In this document: positions 19,471-60,000 of the stretch, piece after piece
How the letters are laid out: every line of letters starts with the position of its first letter
How positions within the stretch are numbered: the first letter of the stretch is position 1
NCBI RefSeq assembly: GCF_026151205.1
Contig: NC_087075.1
Location: forward strand, 6,158,858 to 6,218,857
Origin: Bolinopsis microptera
Taxonomy: Eukaryota; Ctenophora; Tentaculata; Lobata; Bolinopsidae
Direction of reading: 5' to 3'
Length of the DNA stretch: 60,000 nt
Made by a program: the position numbers and the translations under genes
Notes under the pieces: generated by a model
Told to the model about the DNA's origin: nothing
Database searches by the model: none
Seen by the model: the letters and a program-made list of their open reading frames with translations, nothing else

Positions 19471-21293
19471 CAGGGGTGTAGGAATGATTTTCTTCATGGG
19501 GGGGCCAAATTCAAAATATTTTTTGGCGCTTCGCGCCACACCCTAAATTTTTTGGCGCTTCGCGCCAAATCCTGAATTTCGAGGGTAAGGGCAAAAGGAA
19601 ATTGCAGCATGTGCGGTATCGCGATTTTTCACGTTTGCCGCGACAAATCGCGATTTTTCAGATTCTGGCCTCTCGACAAATCGCGATTTTTTTCAGTTCT
19701 CCGCGTCAAATTGCGCATTTTCCTTTAAATCTACGGACCAAATTCTCGTTTTCTATAATTAGTATATGAAACCAATCAGTATCGCATCCACAACCTTCCG
19801 AATGTAGGCACGGACTTCAAAAATCCGAAAACAGAAAAATACATTTTCGGCTCATAATGATCAAGGTAGCATGAAACATGAACTAAAGTAATTTCCAGAA
19901 AAACTTTGAAAAATTTTGACTTAGAAAATTTTCGGTCCGAGTCATTCTCGATACGTACCTCTGAAAGCAGAGCTCCCGCTTCCGAGCTCGTATTGCGAAG
20001 GGGAGGCCTGCCTTCCGAGATCGCATTACAAAGGCCAAAGGGGAACCCTCGAGTCCAAAATCATATATCGAACTTCGAAAACCGAAAAAAATATTTTTGG
20101 CTCACAATGATCAGGGTAGCATGAAACATGAACAAAAGTAGTTTCCAGAAAAACTTTGAAAAATTTTGACTTTGAAAATTTTCGGTCCGAGTCATTCTCG
20201 ATACGTACCTCTGAAAGCAGAGCTCCCGCTTCCAAGCTCGTATTGCGAAGGGGAGGCCTGCCTTCCGAGATCGCATTACAAAGGGGAACCCTCGAGTCCA
20301 AAAACATACATCGAACTTCGAAAACCGAAAAATATATTTTTGGCTCATAATGATCAGGTTAGCATGAAACATGAACAAAAGTAGTTTCCAGAAAAACTTT
20401 GAAAAATTTTGACTTTGAAAATTTTCGGTCCGAGTCATTCTCGATACGTACCTCTGAAAGCAGAGCTCCCGCTTCCGAGCTCGTATTGCGAAGGGGAGGC
20501 CTGCCTTCCGGGATCGCATTACAAAGGCCAAAGGGGAACCCTCGAGTCCAAAATCATATATCGAACTTCGAAAACCGAAAAAAATATTTTTGGCTCACAA
20601 TGATCAGGGTAGCATGAAACATGAACAAAAGTAGTTTCCAGAAAAACTTTGAAAAATTTTGACTTTGAAAATTTTCGGTCCGAGTCATTCTCGATACGTA
20701 CCTCTGAAAGCAGAGCTCCCGCTTCCAAGCTCGTATTGCGAAGGGGAGGCCTGCCTTCCGAGATCGCATTACAAAGGGGAACCCTCGAGTCCAAAAACAT
20801 ACATCGAACTTCGAAAACCGAAAAACATATTTTTGGCTCATAATGATCAGGTTAGCATGAAACATGAACAAAAGTAGTTTCCAGAAAAACTTTGAAAAAT
20901 TTTGACTTTGAAAATGTTCGGTCCGAGTCATTCTCGATACGTACCTCTGAAAGCAGAGCTCCCGCTTCTGAGCTCGTATTGCGAAGGCTAGGGGATGCCT
21001 GCCTTCCGAGAACGCATCACAAAGGGGAACCCTCGAGTCCAAAATCATACATCGAACTTCGAAAACCAAAAAATATATTTTTGGCTCATAATGATTATTT
21101 TATAATAAGTCAAAAACTTTGAAAAATTTTGACTTATTATAAAATTTTTGACTAAATAAATTTTCGGGGAAAATTTTTTTTTTCCCAAAAATTTTTAGAA
21201 ACCTAAATTAAAAAGTTGGCCCTTTTTGGCCCCTTGCCCAGATTTCATGGGGGGGCGATGGCCCCCCCTGCCCCCCCGCTTCCTACACCCCTG
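19471..21293. mobile_element. Non-autonomous hAT-type transposon, 1,823 bp
   Basis: Ends are inverted: CAGGGGTGTAGGAA at 19471 and its complement TTCCTACACCCCTG finishing at 21293. Both ends are flanked by the identical 8-bp word CCCAAATT (19463-19470 and 21294-21301), the target duplication size of hAT elements. No transposase frame is present. The interior is mostly a 245-250 bp satellite. A poly-G/poly-C stretch lies next to each end. The duplication is exact, so the insertion is probably fairly young. Confidence 0.9.
19850..21115. repeat. Dimeric satellite inside the hAT element
   Basis: Five units of about 243-250 bases, each containing GCTCA(T/C)AATGATCAGG, TAGCATGAAACATGAAC, AAAATTTTGACTTTGAAAA and GCAGAGCTCCCGCTTC. 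Two unit types alternate: one has CAAAGGCCAAAGGGGAACCC, the other lacks the GCCAAAGG. The higher-order period is 493 bases, with long stretches at 20156 and 20649 matching essentially base for base. The predicted frames on both strands are by-products. Confidence 0.92.
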
Positions 21294-21532: not shown

Positions 21533-23808
21533 TCAACTGCACCGATGCATTCTTGAAACGAATCTTCTCCAGCATCTCCAGAAACAAGAGTATATATTCT
21601 TGTAAAGTTCACTGTAGAAAATAGGGTTCAGAATGCTGTTGATGGGTAGAACCAGCAGAGCTAGCACTTCAAACAGTACGGGAGGAGGACTATCACTAAC
21701 TATTTGGAAGTACACGGCAGCCCCGATGAAAGTCAACCAACTTGCTAGCTGTGTTCCTATTATCAGGGAAATCTTCAGAGCTAGTGAGGGGGCTGCAGCG
21801 TTTTGTCTGTTCATCCCACCTCCAATGTCTCCCACCTCACGTCGAGACGTTAACTGCTTTCTAACTATGATGAGGTAAGTGAGAGTAACTATGACCAGAA
21901 GTAGGGACACTGTGATAAGGTAGGAGAGTTTATAGATGAGGTAGGATTGTTGTTCTTTAAAGACGTTGTGAACACACAGACGGGTGTTTCCATAATATCC
22001 GATCTCTTTGATATCGAATATGTTGTCTGTACTGGTGATGATGTTGAGGTCTCTGACTGTTGTGTACAGATCAGTTTTGTTATATGTTTCATGTAGGTGG
22101 TTTAACCTGGTCATGTTTACATAGCTAGAGCTGATGAAGGGATTATCTAGAAAGTTTTTAAAGAACACGTCTGTGCGGAAGATATTTTGTATGGCAACCA
22201 AAGGAAGGATGGGAATCAATGCGTTGATCACATTTATGGCAATAAGTATTGCAGATGTTATGAATACTGTTTTGTGTTTGGTTTGATGGTGTACTCTGAC
22301 ACAATTAATACACCTGACAATACTCATAAGGGCTATTGCACTGAGGGACCCATGTGAAGCTATTGAGAATGTCAGTCCAAGTACCTGGCAGAAGATGCTT
22401 GATCTCCAACTTTCATCTTGAAGACAGTAGTTACCATTTGCACGAAGAATCAGGGCTGCGACCACAACACCACAGTTATACAGACCCATACTACCATCAA
22501 AGAAAAGAACCTGGAGACAAAACAATCTGTCAACTTTGCCGGCTGATGTGGAGGGAGTGTTGTTGTAGCATCTGATTCCTCCTCTCAAGTTCAGTATGAT
22601 CATTGAAACTCCTGCAAAAGCTGTGAAAGAAAGCAGAAAGTAAGAACTGAGGAGTAGGTTGGATGACCCATCTGAGTTACAGGGGTCACATTCGTCACGT
22701 CCGTTGGAGCAGTGTTTGATATTATCACAAGTTTTATCAGGAGTCACCCACTCTGTACTCTCAGAGGTATTGAGGGAGCAATAGAAACGTGCTGGACATT
22801 CTGCCTCATCCGCACCGTTAGAACAATCTAATTCTCCGTCACACAGTTTATATAATGGGCAGGTTTCATAGCTTTCGGGGGCACAACTGAAATGAGCCTG
22901 TGTAAACATACCCATATATATTAACACAATTCTTTCGCAAAACTTATCCCATTTGCCTTCAGCAAAGTCAGGAGTGTCAGAGCAGTTTGTTTTACAGTAG
23001 CTAGAAATATCTCCATGGTTATTATCAACGAGCGCTTGTATGATAATATAGTTGAGGCATTGGTTAATAGGGTTGATGGGGTTGATGATAGGGTTTTCAT
23101 TATCCAAAATTGCAGAGCAGTCAAAAGACTCAATATTACGAAAGGTGCATGAATAATTTAACTGTGAAATTGCGTCCTTTTTTCACAATATTCTCTTTGT
23201 GACAAGCAAATACTAGAGGAGTTTAGGATAGGACATTGTAATTCCACGAAACCCTCACATAAACACTCATCAGCGCCATCAAGACAATCATTCTTACCAT
23301 CACACAACTGTGGGAAGGTAACACATCCAGTGCGTTTTGGACAAAAGAAGATATCCATACTGCTGTTGGTACAGCAACATTCGTCTGTCAGGCAATCAGA
23401 AATCTTGTCGCAGTACCGGTTGTCATCGATCTTGCAGAACCAGGGTACTTCAGAGATTGATGCTATCCATGAAGGAGCTAATCGTTTTTGAAGCATAAAA
23501 TCCACAGCGCCAACTGAAACTTGACACACACCTTTCGTTTTATTTTCATTATGACTAATGTTTATAAGATTGAGTGGACGAAAGAAGTCTCCATATTTGA
23601 TATGCAATGAATCTGTGTAAGCTTCTTGGCAGGTGATTCTTTTATGTAGAAGCATTTGCATTTCATTTAAGTTGAAGATATTGGGAATAGTTAGTGGGTC
23701 AGCCATGGGGGGTTTGTCAGGAGAAGGTTCGTCAGGAGGGGGAGGCATACCAGGGTTGATGAGACAAAATAAGGTGAACGCGATCAGAGTTATCAAAAGT
23801 TTGAACAT
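21533..23808 (-). CDS. LDLa-bearing rhodopsin-class GPCR (one frameshift)
   Basis: Intronless receptor in two frames. Part 1 (23808 to 23158) starts MFKLLITLIAFTLFCLINPG, a signal peptide, and carries Cys-rich LDL-receptor class A modules with CDGKNDCLDGADEC. Part 2 is open from about 23185 to 21533. It adds CDGELDCSNGADEAEC and another degenerate module, then seven hydrophobic helices: TM1 after SSNLLLSSYFLLSF, a TM3 end MSIVRCINC replacing the usual DRY, and TM7 with NPIFY matching NPxxY. The parts overlap out of frame; an A6 run on the coding strand (T6 at 23178-23183) lies in the overlap, and one extra base there would join them into one protein of about 750 residues. Similar LDLa receptors (GRL101-like, relaxin-receptor-like) are common in cnidarians and molluscs. 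No leucine-rich repeats are seen. The ligand is unknown. Confidence 0.85.
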
Positions 23809-26765
23809 CTCTTCTGTCTACTGAATAATTATAGGTGTTAAGAGCCTCCGACAGTTGAAACCAACTTAAATCGATGTACAGGGTGGGCCAAAAGTCAGTG
23901 GGCATACGTTGGCCTTAATAGATCAGTCACTGTGTGACCAATTGAAATAATTTTTTCTGGTACGACTTACTTACCACCACTGGTTCGAGGAATTTGTCAA
24001 ATCAAAAAATATTAGAGTTCATTTTTTTCAAATGAAGGTTCATTTTTACATTTATTTGATAGTTTGGATAGTCGGAACGAGCTAAATTTTATTGAATTTT
24101 GTTTGGCCATTCGAATTACGTTTGTCCTGAACAAACTACAGTTGTAGCTTCTCGTATGGCCGAGAAACGAAGCATAACGATTTAATTCATTACGTGTGAT
24201 CAGGTGATTGGCTTACCTTATCACGTGATAAGGTCACCCCGTTAACCAACCCATTAAACATTATGGGAATCGTTAAGCTGCCCAATTAAGGTGTCGTGTC
24301 ACGGTGTCACATAAAGGATTTCAAAGGATTTCAAGGAATTCAAAATAAGATGATCATTACAGTAAACATTGTGTCGGATCTAAATTTTAAAAAATAAAGA
24401 TAAAATGAAAGTCAAAAACGAAAAAACCGAAACCTGTCCTGAAAAATGCACGGTTGACGGTTATAGTCTAAAGAGTTTAAAAACCGAGCTATTCTAAAAA
24501 GGAATGTTCATGACGCGAACAACCAGTCCTTTGTGTCCATGCCTAAGATCCACACATAAATTCCACACTAAATCAAAAGTGTGAAACGCACACGAAAAAT
24601 AACACACTGTCGGATCCACGTTTCGCATGTTGAGTCCGTGAGTCATGTTTTTAGTCCTTCCTTTTCTTTTCTGTCACTCGGGGGGAACCTCCGCTTGTTC
24701 ACTTTACTCAAGAATCTGGCAGTTTCTCTGATCAATAGGATATCCTTGAAGAGGTCGGCAAAGGTCTCCGCTCCAGAGGTGATCATAGTTCTCGCCTGCT
24801 GACCTATGTTTCGCCTCAGGTCGTCGTAAAGCGAACAGTCCGTGAGAACGTGTTTCTCATCTTCAATGATCGGCTCAAAAATTGGTAGCTCGGTCAGTAT
24901 ACCGACAGCTTCAAGGTCTGATGAAGAACAGTGCTTACAAATGCGACTGAGCGGATTTTCACGGTTGATGGCGTATCTACCGGTCTCGATGTTGAACTTA
25001 TGAGCACTCATTCTGAACTGCGCCAGCCGCTTCACCTCTTCTCCACTGAGCTGCAGGTTCAGGTACGCTTCAGCTGTAAATTCACTTTTGATAGTGTTGT
25101 AGAAACTGAGCTTCCGGTTGTTTTGCCGCTCCTCGTTCCAACAGTTAATAAAAGTACTACGTAGTGCTGTTTTGAATTGGTTGGGGTAGGTCAACCTGCG
25201 AGATGATACTGACTGAAGGCTTTGTCGGAGATCTTCTATACCTTTGTACCATGGCAGATTGAGTGTGCGTTGTTCTATGAACGCCTGTCTGGCTAGACTT
25301 GTGCAACCAGCTCTGTCCATTTGCTCAAGTCGGTTGAAATACCCAAATACTTGTTTTGATGCCTTTATCACTAGGGGGCAGCGGCCTGTATCACCCCATA
25401 CACTCGCATTTGAGGTTTTTCTGCCCACTCCTAAGGTCCACTTGAGGAATGAGAGATGAAGCTTTTCGAGAGGATCTCTTGCAGTCTCCTTCAGGAGAGA
25501 TTTGGTGTTGATATTATCTTGATAGTTTCTGACAAAGAGAGTCTCTGGGAGCCACACCTGACATCCGTATGTCACAATCGGTACCACAAGCGCGTCGAAT
25601 AGCTTGAATACAATTGTTCGCCTGAAGTGTCTTAAGTCAATACTGCTTTTTAGCGCGAAGTAGCTTCTGAGACCTTTTTGCTTCAGTTTGTTCTGTGCTA
25701 CTGCTGAAGAACCGTTGAGGGTAAAGGTTATCCCGAGGTAGCAATATTCTCGAACTGATGTGATGTTGGTTTCGCCGAGTTGGAATGTCAGACTATCTTT
25801 AAGGAGCCTCCCGGAACGGTTGAACACCATCACTGCCGTTTTTCCGATGTTAACGGTTAGTCCCCATTCGATACAGTAACTGTGTAAAACGTTTAGAAGT
25901 TTCTGTAGTCCAGTATGATCAAGGGCAAGTAGTATAAGATCATCTGCCCAGAGGAGATGAGTGATATTAACATTATTCAGTTCAGGGACGTTGACTTCCT
26001 CAGCGTTATCCAGATCTAGGGAGAGTTGGTGGATGAAACACTTGAACAGCTCAGGAGACATCGGGTGACCTTGCTCAGTCCCACAGTGAATGTCGATTGT
26101 CTCTGACAATTTGTTCAACAGTTTGATTTTTGCTGAGGAATGTGAATACATCTGCTCGATACATTGAAAGTATCGACCTCTTACTCCTAGCTCCCAGAGT
26201 ATATAGAGCATGGCATCTCGGCACACAGAGTCGAACGCCTTCGCGTAGTCGACGAAGCATCCATATAGCCTCTTTATCCGTTGCGTTACATACTTTTGGA
26301 TGCAAGTTGAGAGTGTTAGTATGTGGTCACTCGTCTGTGCTTTTTTACAGAACCCTAGCTGGTTTATGGTGTCTGGACAGTTCAGTGACCGGAATGTGAG
26401 TAGGCGCTGTAATAAGATAGTTGAAAACAGCTTCCCAACATTGCTCGCCACGGCTATCGCCCGGTAGTTGTTCGGATCGTATACACTCCCCTTTTTGTGC
26501 AAGGGGGTAACTAGAGAGGTCGTCCATGGATACTCCCCGAGTGGTTGAACAGGTTAAGAACAGCTGACAGCATTGGTTCATCTGACGAAATGAGGAACTC
26601 ATTCAGGATTTTATCTTCGGCGATGGCTTTCCCTTTCTTAAGGCCTTTGATGGCGGTCCGAAGTTCCTCTATTTCGATATCTTTGTCCAGAACTTCCACG
26701 AGTTCATGAACACGAGGTTCAGTCTTTCTGCGTTCCGTGAAGTCAGCAGTTTCTTCATTCGGGAG

Positions 26766-27526
26766 CTAAGATGAGAAGTATGTATCATACGTACTTTTCA
26801 AAGTATTGTACAAGTACGTACTTTTAAAATACTGCGGAAAAGTACGCAGATACAATAATGTAGTGCACCTGAGAGAACTCGAGCATTACATGCTAAATGT
26901 GGACAGCGAGGGGCTCAATTTATACACCGAAGTGGATTCGTTGCAGAATCTACCAAATCCTATGTTGTATTGGAGATACTATAGCCCACAGAGTTATGAG
27001 GTTCTCCATTTGATCGCTAGAAAAGTTTTTAGTGTTCTGACTTCTTCCTCAGTCTGTGAACAAAATTTTAAAGACATGGAGTATATCTACTGCAGTAGAA
27101 GACTACGCACTAAGCCTGAGAGATTCAACAAATTGATCTACATCTACTCTAATGCAAAACTGAAACGTTATTAAAGCTGAAATTAAATTTGATCTGTTGA
27201 AATGATGATGCTAGAAAGTTCATTGTTTTTTGTTTTGATGAAATGATGAAGCTTATTAAACTTTCTTTGTTATCTGCGATTGAGTGTTTCTATTATCTCC
27301 ATGAATATGGCTTTCAAAACCATCATGACAATGAAATTTCAATCGTGGAAGTCGGGAGTTTCCATTAAATAAAACGTCGGATCTAAAAAACTTTACATCG
27401 CGCCTGTGATTGTGAAAAGAAGTTTGAAAATTGTTTGAATCGTACACTGAGGTATCATACGTACTTTTCAAAATAAAGTACAAGTACGTACTTTTCGCCC
27501 GGTATCATACATACTTCTCATCTTAG
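26766..27526 (+). mobile_element. hAT transposon remnant inside the LINE
   Basis: Perfect 20-bp terminal inverted repeats CTAAGATGAGAAGTATGTAT, flanked by the exact 8-bp duplication TTCGGGAG (26758-26765 and 27527-27534). The plus-strand frame (to 27174) encodes the hAT C-terminal dimerisation region: PMLYWRYYSPQSYEVLHLI, RKVFSVLTSSSVCEQNFK, SRRLRTKPERFN. The catalytic part is missing, so this 761-bp copy is internally deleted. Removing it with one duplication leaves the host LINE frame continuous (SLPN then EETAD), which confirms the boundaries. Confidence 0.93.
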
Positions 27527-27637
27527 TTCGGGAGGGAAGGTTTTGAGTACAGCTCTTTGAAGAATTTACAGAAGTTCATCATATCGAAAACGTCCAGCTT
27601 TGTGCCATTTGAGGAGAAGCTTTTAAGTTTCTTGATA

Positions 27638-28262
27638 GTCTATGTAATAAGCGCCATGAGCTGGCACAGAATTTTTTGTCTCTGATTTTGATAAATTTGG
27701 TACCAAAAGTTGCCTCTAAGTGTGAATAATGAAAATTCACCGTGTAGCACGATAACGTCGAGCTGTATGTGGGCCTTTTGCGCATCACAAGAGTGTACAA
27801 AGGACGAAAAATGGGTAATTTATTGCTTAAAATGCCTATAACTCCTAACATATTAAATATTTTGAAATAATTCATACAGGATCGTAATGAACTTAGCCAG
27901 ACGCAACTTTTAATACCAAAATTATAATATTTGAAGAACAAAAATGTTCAGATTAAAAATTTTTGAAAATAATTTTCCTTTAAATCTTAAAATATTAGTA
28001 TTAAAAGTTTCGTCTCGATGAGCTGATTACGATGCCATAATAATTATGCGATTATAACTGAAAATGTGAAATTTATAGGCCAAAAACTAAAAATTTGTGC
28101 GAAAAAAGCACGCGCGGCGAACAAGCGCCGTGTAGCATTTTTAGCGAAAATTGCTACACGGTGGATTTATTTTATTCACATTTTTAGACAACTTTTGGTA
28201 CCAAATTTATCGAAATCGGAGAAAAAAGTTCTGTGCTCGCGCTTGGCGCTTATTACACTGAC
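27638..28262. mobile_element. Inverted-repeat element (~625 bp) inside the LINE
   Basis: Imperfect terminal inverted repeats of at least 130 bases: left includes TGTAATAAGCGCCATGAGC and GATAAATTTGGTACCAAAAG; the right inverted gives TGTAATAAGCGCCAAGCGC and the same GGTACC block. The LINE frame resumes on either side (NWSRF, then IKKLK), implying a 2-3 base target duplication (TA or TAT). A strong internal hairpin, GTGTAGCATTTTTAGCG with its partner, lies near 28120-28160. No transposase was seen. Confidence 0.8.
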
Positions 28263-29098
28263 TATAAAGCGACTCCAGTTTATGTCGCGCCCCTCGTCAA
28301 CATCACGACAAAGAGATTCCACGAACTTGGCCTTCTTCTGTCTCACGAGCTTTCGATATTCGCGGCGTTTGTTGTAGTAGCTGTCTCTCAGTTCTTTATC
28401 AAGAGGACTTTTACCGTTACATGTTTTAGCTAATCGATTTAGTTCACGTTTTTCGATGATGCAGGCAATATCAAACCATGGAGACTTCGGTTTTGCCCTT
28501 TTGTATCCCCGAGTTTTCCTATTGAGGGGTTTTTGTTTATGTTTTCTAGGTCTTGGTAGGGCCTGATCAGCCATATCACGATAAATGCCGACGATGTTTT
28601 CATTGAGCTTAATGACATCCTCCTTTTTTACGCAAACAGCTTCAACCAGTTCCGCGATTCTGCTTGCAAACTGGGGTTCTTTTTGGACATCTAGGAACTG
28701 CTGTTTATTCTCTGAAGCATTCTCGTCCCATTTGTGTTTTATTGGGGCTGGCTAAATCACCATAATCACCCAGTCAATTTTGTTAACGAGATACACAAAA
28801 TGCTTGATAACTTCGTCATTTCTAATCCGTTTCACGTCATTTTTTCAGATCAGATGCAACATTCAATAATCTACCGTCTCTGAAAAAAATCAGGCGTCCA
28901 GTATGTTTAGAGAAAACAATATAGGTTTTTTAATTTTGAATGGGCGTGGTCTAAAATATTCGAATTTTCAAAATTTTGACGACGGAATCCTCGAACCAGA
29001 AGGTACAGTATACCATCTGAAAAGCAACAGCTCTCAAATATAAAACACGGCGGAGCTATTAAGGCCAACACATGCCCACTGACTTTTGGCCCAACCTG

Positions 29099-29403
29099 AA
29101 CTTTCGGACGCTGATTCCGAATCACCTCGCATGACATAGGGTTAAAATGCTCCAAGTCCACTGGCAAGATTTTGGCGAAAAACTGTCTCGATCACGTGAT
29201 ATGACCGTATAAGGAAGTTGGTCTAATTTCTCGTTAGGGTTAGGGTTTCAGCATATGCTTTTGTTAGGGATTTGGTTAGACTTAGAGTTAGGTTAGGGAT
29301 CAGATTAGAGGGCTAGGGTTTCGAATAGTCGTGCAGGACCAGCTAGAGAACGGGTTGAAAAAGTCACGTGACAGTCGAGTGTAGAGTGATTAATCATCAT
29401 CCG
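29099..29403. repeat. Dispersed repeat, intact copy
   Basis: Runs from CGCTGATTCCGAATCACC through ATCACGTGATATGACCGTAT, a telomere-like GTTAGGGTTAGGGTTTC and CACGTGACAGTCGAG to TTAATCATCATCCGC. A second copy of the same repeat is split across 30345-30437 and 31643-31852, so this copy shows the uninterrupted state. Confidence 0.85.
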
Positions 29404-30344
29404 CCATGACTACCAGTAACATTCACACCATGGTTTGGTAAGTGACGGATGCCCTTCAGTTTTGAGATCTTGGCCCAAAAAAGAATAAAGACATGATTTA
29501 AGTACGAACGTCAATGAAAAAACTAATCGTTAAGTCTTTAAAAGTTTCGTCGGAATATTATCATTTTTGAACACTGAATTAGATATCGAATAAATGGAAG
29601 GGAATCGCAAAATTGATATATGCTAATAGCTAATGTTATGCGAGGATTATGTTTAAACTGGGGTAAACTATTCGACTTTGATATGGTATGTTGAGCCTTG
29701 AGCGATTATTTTATCATTTATTTGGTGTAAAAGTTTGGTTACGAAAGGTTTCTTCCAACTTCAGATTTGATGGAAATGATAAACATACAATATGTCTATT
29801 TAATTGTTGAATTTTCGGAATAAGCATAGAAAAATACACCGAATGACGCTAAGTATACTTTCATATAACATGATCAGGGCCTTTCTGTAAAAAAATTAAA
29901 AATATTTGGTGAGTGATTAAGTAGTGCAGATCGTGCTACAAGTACAAGCTCTTAATTTTATCATAAGATGAGATTTTGGCTAAATCAGTTTTACTTTTAG
30001 GACAATTACTCTAAAAACTAAGCATTCTTGGCCATATGTTGCGAACAGTTTGGGTGAAGAGAGGGGAAATAGAGTCGAGCAGTATAAGACAGAAACAAAG
30101 TCATGCTCGGGCTGATTCTCAGGTATTTTGTAACCCGGATAAAAGAATCATGCTCCATTTGAAATACTTTTTTATTCAACTTTTATATCATTAGGGGACC
30201 CCGGTACAGGCTATTATGTTCATTTAGAGATTTGGCGGAATGACGAGAGCGTGCTAAATCACTTTGCAGTCGATCTTCGAGATTGTTATAACAGTGGAGT
30301 TCCCACCTACGAGTGGTGACTGAGAGGTGGCGCACCTGAGAGGT
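29404..30344. other. No gene recognised
   Basis: AT-rich. Contains a motif block at about 30190-30245 (GGGGACCCCGGTACAGGCTA, GGCGGAATGACG) related to blocks near 1190 and 34440. Nothing coding was seen. Confidence 0.45.
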
Positions 30345-30437
30345 GTCGCTGATTCCGAATCACCCCCTATGACATAGAGTTAAAATGCTCCTCTAGCGTG
30401 ATATTGACGAAAAACTGTCTCGATCACGTGATATGAC

Positions 30438-41164: not shown

Positions 41165-41235
41165 TTTTAAATCTGATCGGGCTCCTTTCAAGTCCCTCAG
41201 TTCCTCGGCCCACAAATGGGCGAAAATTATAATCT

Positions 41236-41886
41236 GAGTGTAACTCCTTGAGCCAGGCTAGTTTGCCGGATAATCCGAGTGTAACTCCTTGAGCCAGGCT
41301 AGTTTGCCGGATAATCCGAGTGTAACTCCTTGAGCTAGGCTAGTTTGCCGGATAATCCGAGTGTAACTCCTTGAGCCAGGCTAGTTTGCCGGATAATCCG
41401 AGTGTAACTCCTTGAGCCAGGCTAGTTTGCCGGATAATCCGACTGTAACTCCTTGAGCCAGGCTAGTTTGCCGGATAATCCGAGTGTAACTCCTTGAGCC
41501 AGGCTAGTTTGCCGGATAATCCGAGTGTAACTCCTTGAGCCAGGCTAGTTTGCCAGATAATCCGAGTGTAACTCCTTGAGCCAGGCTAGTTTGCCAAATA
41601 ACCCGAGTGTAACTCCTTGAGCCAGGCTAGTTTGCCGGATAATCCGAGTGTAACTCCTTGAGCCAGGCTAGTTTGCCGGATAATCCGAGTGTAACTCCTT
41701 GAGCCAGGCTAGTTTGCCGGATAATCTGAGTGTAACTCCTTGAGTCAGGCTAGTTTGCCGGATAATCCGAGTGTAACTCCTTGAGCCAGGCTAGTTTGCC
41801 GGATAATCCGAGTGTAACTCCTTGAGCCAGGCTAGTTTGCCGGATAATCCGAGTGTAACTCCTTGAGCCAGGCTAGTTTGCCGGAT
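41236..41886. repeat. 41-bp tandem array, about 16 copies
   Basis: Unit TAATCCGAGTGTAACTCCTT GAGCCAGGCTAGTTTGCCGG A with a handful of point changes (CCAAATAACC, CTGAG, GAGTCAGG). Near-identity suggests recent amplification or conversion. Separated from the 47-bp array by about 70 bases of unique sequence. Confidence 0.95.
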
Positions 41887-56230: not shown

Positions 56231-57105
56231 ATCACATGTGGCACTAGGCAAGCCTGTGTGGCACTAGGCAAGCATGTGTGGCACCATACCAGCCTGTGTG
56301 GCACCAGACCAGCCTGTGTGGCACCAGACCAGCCTGTGTGGCACCAGACCAGCCTGTGTGGCACTAGGCAAGCCTGTGTGGCACCAGACAAGCCTGTGTG
56401 GCACCAGGCAAGCCTGTGTTGCACTAGGCAAGCCTGTGTGGCACCAGGCAAGCCTGCGTGGCACCAGGCAAGCCTGCGTGGCACCAGACAAGCCTGCGTG
56501 GCACCAGGCAAGCCTGTGTGGCACCAGGCAAGCCTGCGTGGCACCAGACAAGCCTGCGTGGCACCAGGCAAGCCTGCGTGGCACCAGGCAAGCCTGCGTG
56601 GCACCAGGCAAGCCTGTGTGGCACCAGACCAGCCTGTGTGGCACTAGGCAAGCCTGTGTGGCACCAGACAAGCCTGTGTGGCACCAGGCAAGCCTGTGTT
56701 GCACTAGGCAAGCCTGTGTGGCACCAGGCAAGCCTGCGTGGCACCAGGCAAGCCTGCGTGGCACCAGGCAAGCCTGCGTGGCACCAGGCAAGCCTGCGTG
56801 GCACCAGGCAAGCCTGCGTGGCAACAGGCAAGCCTGCGTGGCACCAGACAAGCCTGCGTGGCACCAGGCAAGCCTGCGTGGCACCAGGCAAGCCTGCGTG
56901 GCACCAGGCAAGCCTGCGTGGCACCAGGCAAGCCTGCGTGGCACCAGGCAAGCCTGCGTGGCACCAGGCAAGCCTGCGTGGCACCAGACAAGCCTGCGTG
57001 GCACCAGACAAGCCTGCGTGGCACCAGACAAGCCTGCGTGGCACCAGACAAGCCTGCGTGGCACCAGGCAAGCCTGCGTGGCACCAGGCAAGCCTGCGTG
57101 GCACC
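56231..57105. repeat. 20-bp tandem array, 44 copies
   Basis: Unit GGCACCAGGCAAGCCTGCGT and variants (AGACA, AGACC, CTAGGCA, TGTGT). Since 20 is not a multiple of 3, each strand cycles through frames every three units, and the unit lacks stops in most frames. This yields long apparent frames on both strands (for example 320 codons on plus, 288 on minus). A 280-base block (14 units) is duplicated: the rare TGTGTTGCACTAGGCA variant at 56417 recurs at 56697. This is a minisatellite, not a gene. Confidence 0.96.
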
Positions 57106-58321: not shown

Positions 58322-58935
58322 GCCTTCTCAGAATCACACTAAATAGTGTGATCTACTCGTCACATTCCCCCTCAGAATCACACTAAATAGTGTAATCTAC
58401 TCGTCACATTCCCCCTCAGAATCACACTAAATAGTGTAATCTACTCGTCACATTCCCCTCAGAATCACACTAAATAGTGTGATCTACTCGTCACATTCCC
58501 CTCAGAATCACACTAAATAGTGTAATCTACTCGTCACATTCCCCTCAGAATCACACTAAATAGTGTGATCTACTCGTCACATTCCCTCTCAGAATTACAC
58601 TAAATAGTGTGATCTACTCGTCACATTCCCCCTCAGAATCACACTAAATAGTGTGATCTACTCGTCACATTCCCCTCAGAATCACACTAAATAGTGTAAT
58701 CTACTCGTCACATTCCCCCTCAGAATCACACTAAATAGTGTGATCTACTCGTCACATTCCCCCTCAGAATCACACTAAATAGTGTAATCTACTCGTCACA
58801 TTCCCCCTCAGAATCACACTAAATAGTGTAATCTACTCGTCACATTCCCCTCAGAATCACACTAAATAGTGTAATCTACTCGTCACATTCCCCCTCAGAA
58901 TCACACTAAATAGTGTAATCTACTCTTCACATCCC
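58322..58935. repeat. 43-44 bp array of hairpin units, 14 copies
   Basis: Unit of CCCCTCAGA, palindrome ATCACACT-AAAT-AGTGTGAT and CTACTCGTCACATT. Arms of 8 bases pair around an AAAT loop. In eight copies the right arm is AGTGTAAT, breaking one pair; six keep AGTGTGAT. Unit length varies by one C. There are no unique spacers between units. Confidence 0.95.
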
Positions 58936-60000
58936 CCCTAAATAGCTATTTAGTTCTGCTCGTCACATTACTTTTTACTGCAGCTGAGTGACTGATAAAT
59001 TGATTATCGGTTCACATGTATCATTATATACTTTTCAATAGTCGCACGTAGCCGAGTAGCTAGTAATACACTATAACAGCTATTCCTCCTCAAGCTGAAA
59101 CACAATAAAAAGCACTTTATTTTAACAACAAAAACTTAAAAAGTAATTCGCACGCTAGAACAGTGAAAAGAAAACAAATACAATGAGCTACATGTGTTAA
59201 CATTATCCTCCGCATGCATCCCAGCACACCACTGGTAGTCTCCCTCCGCACTGGTAGTCAGTAAATGAGAGCGGGTAGTCACGTGACACTCCCCCGTCAC
59301 GTGAGCAGCACTGTTTTACAAGGCAAGACAGATTGTTGTTTTGAATGTAGGCGCATCTATAACAAGCAGGAGAGAGAGCACACCTCTCTCTCACTCACCG
59401 CACCTCGATCTGATCTCCGTATTATCGCTGTTTGTTCCCTTCTCAATTGTCTGCTTCCAATAATCGAGCGCTACTCACGGTCTATTTTACTCCGCAAACA
59501 GTAGAATATTTTAAATGAGGGCGGGACACGCTCATTGTTTTAATTTCTTTATTTTTTCATACGCAGAGCAATCGTTAGAGATTCCCATATTCGCATGCAT
59601 TAGTTTTAATAATGATAAATAGCAGTAGCATGTCTTGATCATGGAATCAATTTCAAGCAACGTTATTTTTAAAACAAACAATACTAGTAGCTAAACTGAT
59701 TATACACTGTCTCTCCGTATGATGGCTTACTACTGAGATGAAGAGCAATTTTAAGCACGTGTTATTGGATATCGGAGATCAAAATTTCGGAGATCACATG
59801 TAATTTACGAGGCTAAATTCTGTGATGTACAGTAATTTAATGTTTCATTGTATTCAAAATATTTACTTAGTGGAGGCCAATTCATGGATCAAATATTATA
59901 TGGCGCAGAAATTTGTCTTGCAAAAATTAAGTTTATCATATTTAGAGAACTACAAGCGCTCTTGAGGCCTTAATATATCGTTAAACTATTTTATCAAAAC
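58936..60000. other. No gene recognised
   Basis: AT-rich with CACGTG at about 59280 and 59297. Short frames of 60-80 codons show no domain. Nothing else was seen. Confidence 0.45.

Follow-up and report, generated by a model that had tools for sequence, protein, structure and literature searches.

Five nested transposable elements in the genome of Bolinopsis microptera and the order of their insertion

The window analysed here is a stretch of 60,000 nucleotides from the ctenophore Bolinopsis microptera (contig NC_087075.1, denoted C4; C4:6158858-6218857), and the structure in question is a nest of transposable elements lying between its positions 23840 and 29402. The outermost layer is an element with terminal inverted repeats (TIRs), designated R5; it is interrupted by a miniature inverted-repeat transposable element (MITE) of likely mariner type, the MITE by a 5'-truncated long interspersed nuclear element (LINE) on the minus strand, and the LINE by two separate insertions, a non-autonomous hAT element and a foldback MITE. 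These five layers almost certainly result from independent, ordinary transposition events, and their order is R5, MITE, LINE, and then hAT and foldback, the latter two without mutual order. The nesting, the target duplications, and the empty sites are all directly visible in one genome. An earlier reading of the letters made without database searches (the sequence-only reading) had recognised four nested layers, counted from the mariner-like ends inwards; all four are present, but the number is at least five, the MITE itself lying inside R5. The window was scanned for repeats, open reading frames (ORFs), and domains, and each layer was then searched for in the genome holding the window (264,652,675 bases in 232 contigs); the best 40 candidates were scored for each layer, and the totals quoted below are numbers of first-look candidates, not copy counts. 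Every layer turned out to be a dispersed repeat with many genomic relatives, and is therefore not a product of chance.

The LINE occupies positions 24315..28753 on the minus strand, about 3,038 bp of this interval being LINE-derived by coordinates, and carries a reverse transcriptase domain (Pfam RVT_1, E 1.6e-26). Its 3' end, at 24315, is made of short tandem TGAAATCCTT-like units. The search with the 3' part gave 99 first-look candidates, the best dispersed copies being 98-99% identical. The relatives extend beyond 28753 into an endonuclease domain (Exo_endo_phos_2, E 4.4e-08 in L026, the sole relative scanned for domains, which carries both endonuclease and reverse transcriptase); this domain has been lost from the window copy by truncation, and the copy starts at about residue 303 of the relatives' frame. 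It also has a 10-bp deletion of its own near 26540, which shifts the frame. The window LINE differs by 0.9-1.1% from five relatives (L026-L030), which differ by only 0.16-0.43% among themselves; the family is young, and the window copy is dead. Open frames of at least 1207 amino acids each, running off the fetched piece, are found in the four longer of these relatives, and, judged by its sequences, the family has perhaps been active recently. About 350 bp of 3' flank are common to L026 and L027.

The hAT element lies within the LINE at 26766..27526 on the plus strand. It is 761 bp long, has a perfect 20-bp TIR, and is flanked by an 8-bp target duplication, TTCGGGAG, at 26758..26765 and 27527..27534, exactly as the sequence-only reading had described. 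Its domain match is limited to a C-terminal part (Pfam Dimer_Tnp_hAT, E 2e-07), and no complete transposase was found in it (longest relevant ORF 134 amino acids) or in L042, a relative of 1,292 bp. The genome search yielded 98 first-look candidates, and 11 of the 11 relatives examined, 606-1292 bp in length, have the same TIR and are flanked by perfect duplications of 8 bp. Two copies on different contigs, L032 and L034, have common flanks and a common duplication (gaattgtg), which places them within one and the same repeat or a duplicated segment. Besides the window's own, 22 scored LINE copies reach the insert sites, of which 20 were read (all except C3:6193357 and C2:15241720). Each of the 20 is empty at the hAT site and has one octamer with the LINE continuing directly; the octamer varies among the copies and is TTCGGGAG, as in the window, in three. 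The insertion adds 769 bp, and the LINE frame resumes exactly across it.

The foldback MITE is located about 100 bp from hAT, also within the LINE, at 27638..28262. Its length is 625 bp, in agreement with the previous estimate, its ends read GTC...GAC, its halves are inverted copies with 68% identity, and the DNA hairpin is far more stable than those of shuffled sequences (z -12.7, 20 shuffles). It had 812 first-look candidates, and TA is present at 14 of the 14 visible ends of 11 relatives. The 20 LINE copies are uninterrupted at this site as well, TTTCTT leading directly into AAAGC, so that all of them lack both inserts, as do copies of the kind that the sequence-only reading had proposed to search for. 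Junction bases with no counterpart in these copies are GATA on the left (27634..27637) and TAT on the right (28263..28265). The window thus has 632 extra bp between residues 464 and 465 of the frame seen in the relatives, made up of the 625-bp element, TA, and five further bases, and the reading frame, proposed earlier to resume across both inserts, does not do so across this one. An expansion of the site by 5 bp before the arrival of the foldback is the simplest parse, and two later indels fit equally. A footprint left by a mariner-type element consists of three bases plus TA. It is conceivable, if rather unlikely, that one TA of the LINE served two insertions, a TA-type element first entering and departing again, with five bases (three plus TA) left behind, and the foldback entering afterwards; the site would then document both an insertion and an excision.

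It is very improbable that the foldback predates this LINE copy and was brought in by the copy from which the LINE was transcribed. In favour of this, the terminal branch measures 2.2% for the foldback (1.7% when taken from a partial alignment) and 0.75% for the LINE, but the site is empty in every one of the LINE copies read (20 from the 99 first-look candidates, many of which perhaps do not reach it), and the numbers of private substitutions, 8/625 in the foldback and 22/3035 in the LINE, do not differ (p = 0.22).

The LINE is enclosed by the two parts of the outer MITE, both on the plus strand: the left one, with the TIR CAGGGTGGGCCAAAAGTC, at 23879..24314 (1595 first-look candidates, 90-96% identity in long matches), and the right one, at 28761..29098 (1624 first-look candidates). 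Positions 23879-29098, already recognised as mariner-like ends around a minus-strand LINE, are the exact ends of the MITE without its TA target duplication, and the element would measure about 769 bp without its inserts. The outer inverted repeat is 49 nt long with 90% identity (23876-23924/29053-29101). TA flanks both ends in eight of 14 MITE relatives and at least one end in all 14. The target duplication of the LINE, CATAA, is found at 24310..24314 and, as the beginning of the right MITE part, at 28761..28765, while the 5' junction of the LINE contains a 7-bp filler, AAATCAC (28754..28760), in a place where the LINE relatives differ and the arms of empty MITE copies abut without filler. Of 19 distinct MITE copies, 13 have abutting arms with no LINE between them, the overlap being 5 bp long in 11 copies, 4 bp in L019, and 2 bp in L020; its sequence is CATAA. 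Incompleteness, or indels where the arms meet, makes the remaining six copies (L003, L005, L009, L016, L018, L023) uninformative, and the MITE fragments in L054 and L027 were left out of the count. One of the loci, L004 (C1:17303609-17305159), holds the outer MITE twice, the copies being oriented alike and lying 8 bp apart.

Abundance of the MITE and its occurrence in such a close pair would be compatible with the ends belonging to two different copies, between which the LINE came to lie by rearrangement. This is even less probable than an older foldback, since the 5-bp LINE duplication is present in both arms exactly where empty copies are continuous, and the closest relatives, L002 and L004 (about 95-96%), are common to both arms; the ends therefore belong to one MITE copy, and two unrelated MITE ends, named in the sequence-only reading as an outcome that would speak against it, were rejected. 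As for the LINE being cargo of the TIR element, the two forming one recurrent mobile unit, the enclosure of the LINE by TIRs is what such a unit would look like, but the empty MITE copies led to its rejection as next to impossible, and a MITE arm is missing from the 3' junction of each of the five LINE relatives available with flanks (a 113-bp MITE fragment, some 1.4 kb away, occurs in L027 only).

The MITE in turn interrupts R5, a high-copy TIR element of about 375 bp, copies with both ends measuring 373-375 bp. A 9-bp duplication flanks all four of the copies for which both ends could be located (six were tried, the other two having no recognisable end); we take duplications of this length to be linked to Mutator, to which R5 is not assigned here. 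The search with the whole 702-bp query gave 2265 first-look candidates. In the window R5 is represented, on the plus strand, by a left remnant (23840..23876, with 92-95% matches elsewhere) and a right part (29102..29402, about 90% identical to dispersed repeats) with the terminus ...TTAATCATCATCC. About 46 nt of the left end are absent (329 aligned bases against copies of 375 bp), and since that end is missing, the target duplication of the window R5 itself is not checkable. In six of nine R5 loci the two parts are continuous and the MITE site is empty, L086, L087, and L089 reading CGATG-TA-TTTTCGG across it; L082, L083, and L084 are incomplete or rearranged and not informative. The TA target duplication of the MITE is intact on the left (23877..23878), while the right copy (29099..29100) now reads AA, as seen from the window and the R5 copies. 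R5 contains internal telomere-like TTAGGG stretches (29230-29325 in the window, and also in copies L082 and L087-L090), and may be spreading interstitial telomeric motifs through the genome. A second, partial R5-like stretch is situated near the nest, at 30347-30437.

Empty sites at every step thus bear out the order given by the sequence-only reading, mariner before LINE and LINE before the two inner elements, and place R5 before them all. The history of the locus begins with R5, an element with TIRs and 9-bp duplications, lying upstream of a gene whose product has a signal-peptide-like start and a weak match to low-density lipoprotein (LDL) receptor class A. A TA-inserting mariner-type MITE then entered a TA of R5, and a LINE went into the MITE, probably by target-primed reverse transcription, in which only the 3' three kilobases were copied and the 5' end was closed with the 7-bp filler. 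Finally, the non-autonomous hAT and, independently, the TA-inserting foldback MITE inserted into the dead LINE, probably by means of enzymes supplied from elsewhere. Knowledge of the respective families suggests both the mechanisms named here and the provision of enzymes in trans. Nests of this kind would be expected from the abundance of the elements.

Several observations weigh against this history. Although the sequence-only reading had expected age to decrease inwards, neither terminal branches nor private substitutions gave an age gradient among the four inner layers. Private substitutions, besides those of the LINE and foldback given above, amount to 16/329 in R5, 7/768 in the MITE, and 7/752 in hAT; no difference is seen among the four inner layers (Fisher p 0.22 to 1.0), and only R5 stands out as the most decayed layer (16/329, where the others have 0.7-1.3%; p at most 0.002). 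These counts are affected by the number of copies compared, which was five for R5 (L082 without its left part), 14 for the MITE, five for the LINE, and 11 each for hAT and the foldback. Nor do terminal branches fall with depth, the values for the MITE and hAT being 1.85% and 1.2%, and that of the foldback exceeding that of its host LINE. Two junctions depart from the textbook form as well, the foldback site having five extra bases and R5 lacking its left end. The coordinates given by the sequence-only reading are exact. Moreover, the six MITE copies and three R5 loci outside the empty counts say nothing either way, and no transposase bearing the ends of the MITE, foldback, or R5 was found in searches confined to DDE_3 and PF01359. 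Divergence values vary with the relatives that have survived and been fetched, and because the other LINE copies are empty at the foldback site, we read the distance to the nearest fetched relative as probably something other than an insertion age. The order rests on nesting and empty sites, not on divergence.

The gene upstream of which the nest lies is an ORF at 23158-23817 on the minus strand. Its start, read from the sequence, resembles a signal peptide, and its match to LDL-receptor class A in the domain scan is below the threshold (20.8 bits versus a cut-off of 24.1). The distance from the first ATG (23808) is 31 bp to R5 and 70 bp to the MITE. In line with the history given above, two paralogues of this gene (C4:2.597 Mb and C5:0.738 Mb, 89%) match the window up to 23841 and again from 29584, with only about 45 bp of different sequence in between; positions 29403-29583 belong to none of the named layers. 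Further relatives of the ORF, 79-84% identical, are found near C4:12.0-12.1 Mb. Elsewhere in the window there are long tandem arrays at 19826-21095 (period 243), 41229-41886 (41), 56238-57105 (20), and 58327-58939 (44).

A search of the genome with the DDE_3 profile gave 13 matches, of which nine loci were read, and none of the nine carries the ends of the MITE or foldback. The PF01359 search gave no match in the genome and none in any of 14 controls, and is hence uninformative. Three loci, L072-L074, are mariner-type genes whose open frames are 398 amino acids long and have the second D separated from the third by 41 residues (DD41D); they are flanked by TA and have CAGGGTGTTTCGAGACTCG or CAGGGTGTTGCAAGACTCG as TIR arms. 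Of two related loci, L077 is shorter and L078 more distant. On a reading of its translations L075 resembles a retroelement more than a mariner, and so, judged by its frames, does L076. DD41D is the mark of rosa-type mariners, and a paper on aphids (PMC5490172) lists the rosa TIR as AAGGGTGTCTCAAAAAG (AAGGGTGTCTC...), along with MITEs that carry it. The outer MITE resembles the rosa-type elements and MITEs in TA insertion and a similar outermost part of the TIR. With the DD41D elements of its own genome it has only CAGGGTG and the TA target in common, and no transposase with its full TIR was found among the nine DDE_3 loci read. Taken together, the DD41D genes of the genome and the rosa-type MITEs make a mariner-type origin of the outer MITE likely. 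Among published texts in a limited literature collection, TIR strings gave matches only for an 11-base string, none of them, by title, on transposons.

All parts of the nest are of known kinds, and no view of how these elements work is changed. The locus is a worked example of five layers ordered by empty sites inside one genome, with a very young LINE family beside high-copy MITE families, and it brings a caution, namely that a ranking of nested elements by distance to the nearest relative can contradict the order of nesting. The hAT element is similar to other non-autonomous members of the hAT superfamily in its 8-bp duplications, short perfect TIR, and C-terminal dimerisation domain, and differs in that the window copy is internally deleted and no full transposase occurs in the copies read. 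The LINE has the features of LINEs with an endonuclease and a reverse transcriptase, i.e., both domains in its relatives, 5' truncation, and a short target duplication, and differs from them in a 3' end made of short tandem units. The foldback, with long inverted arms, TA duplication, and many copies, is like other foldback or long-TIR MITEs inserting at TA. Nesting is also used to order insertions in nested-element chronologies, as in REANNOTATE (PMC2672092) and TRANScendence (PMC5657132), to which the present case adds one further example, ordered by empty sites.

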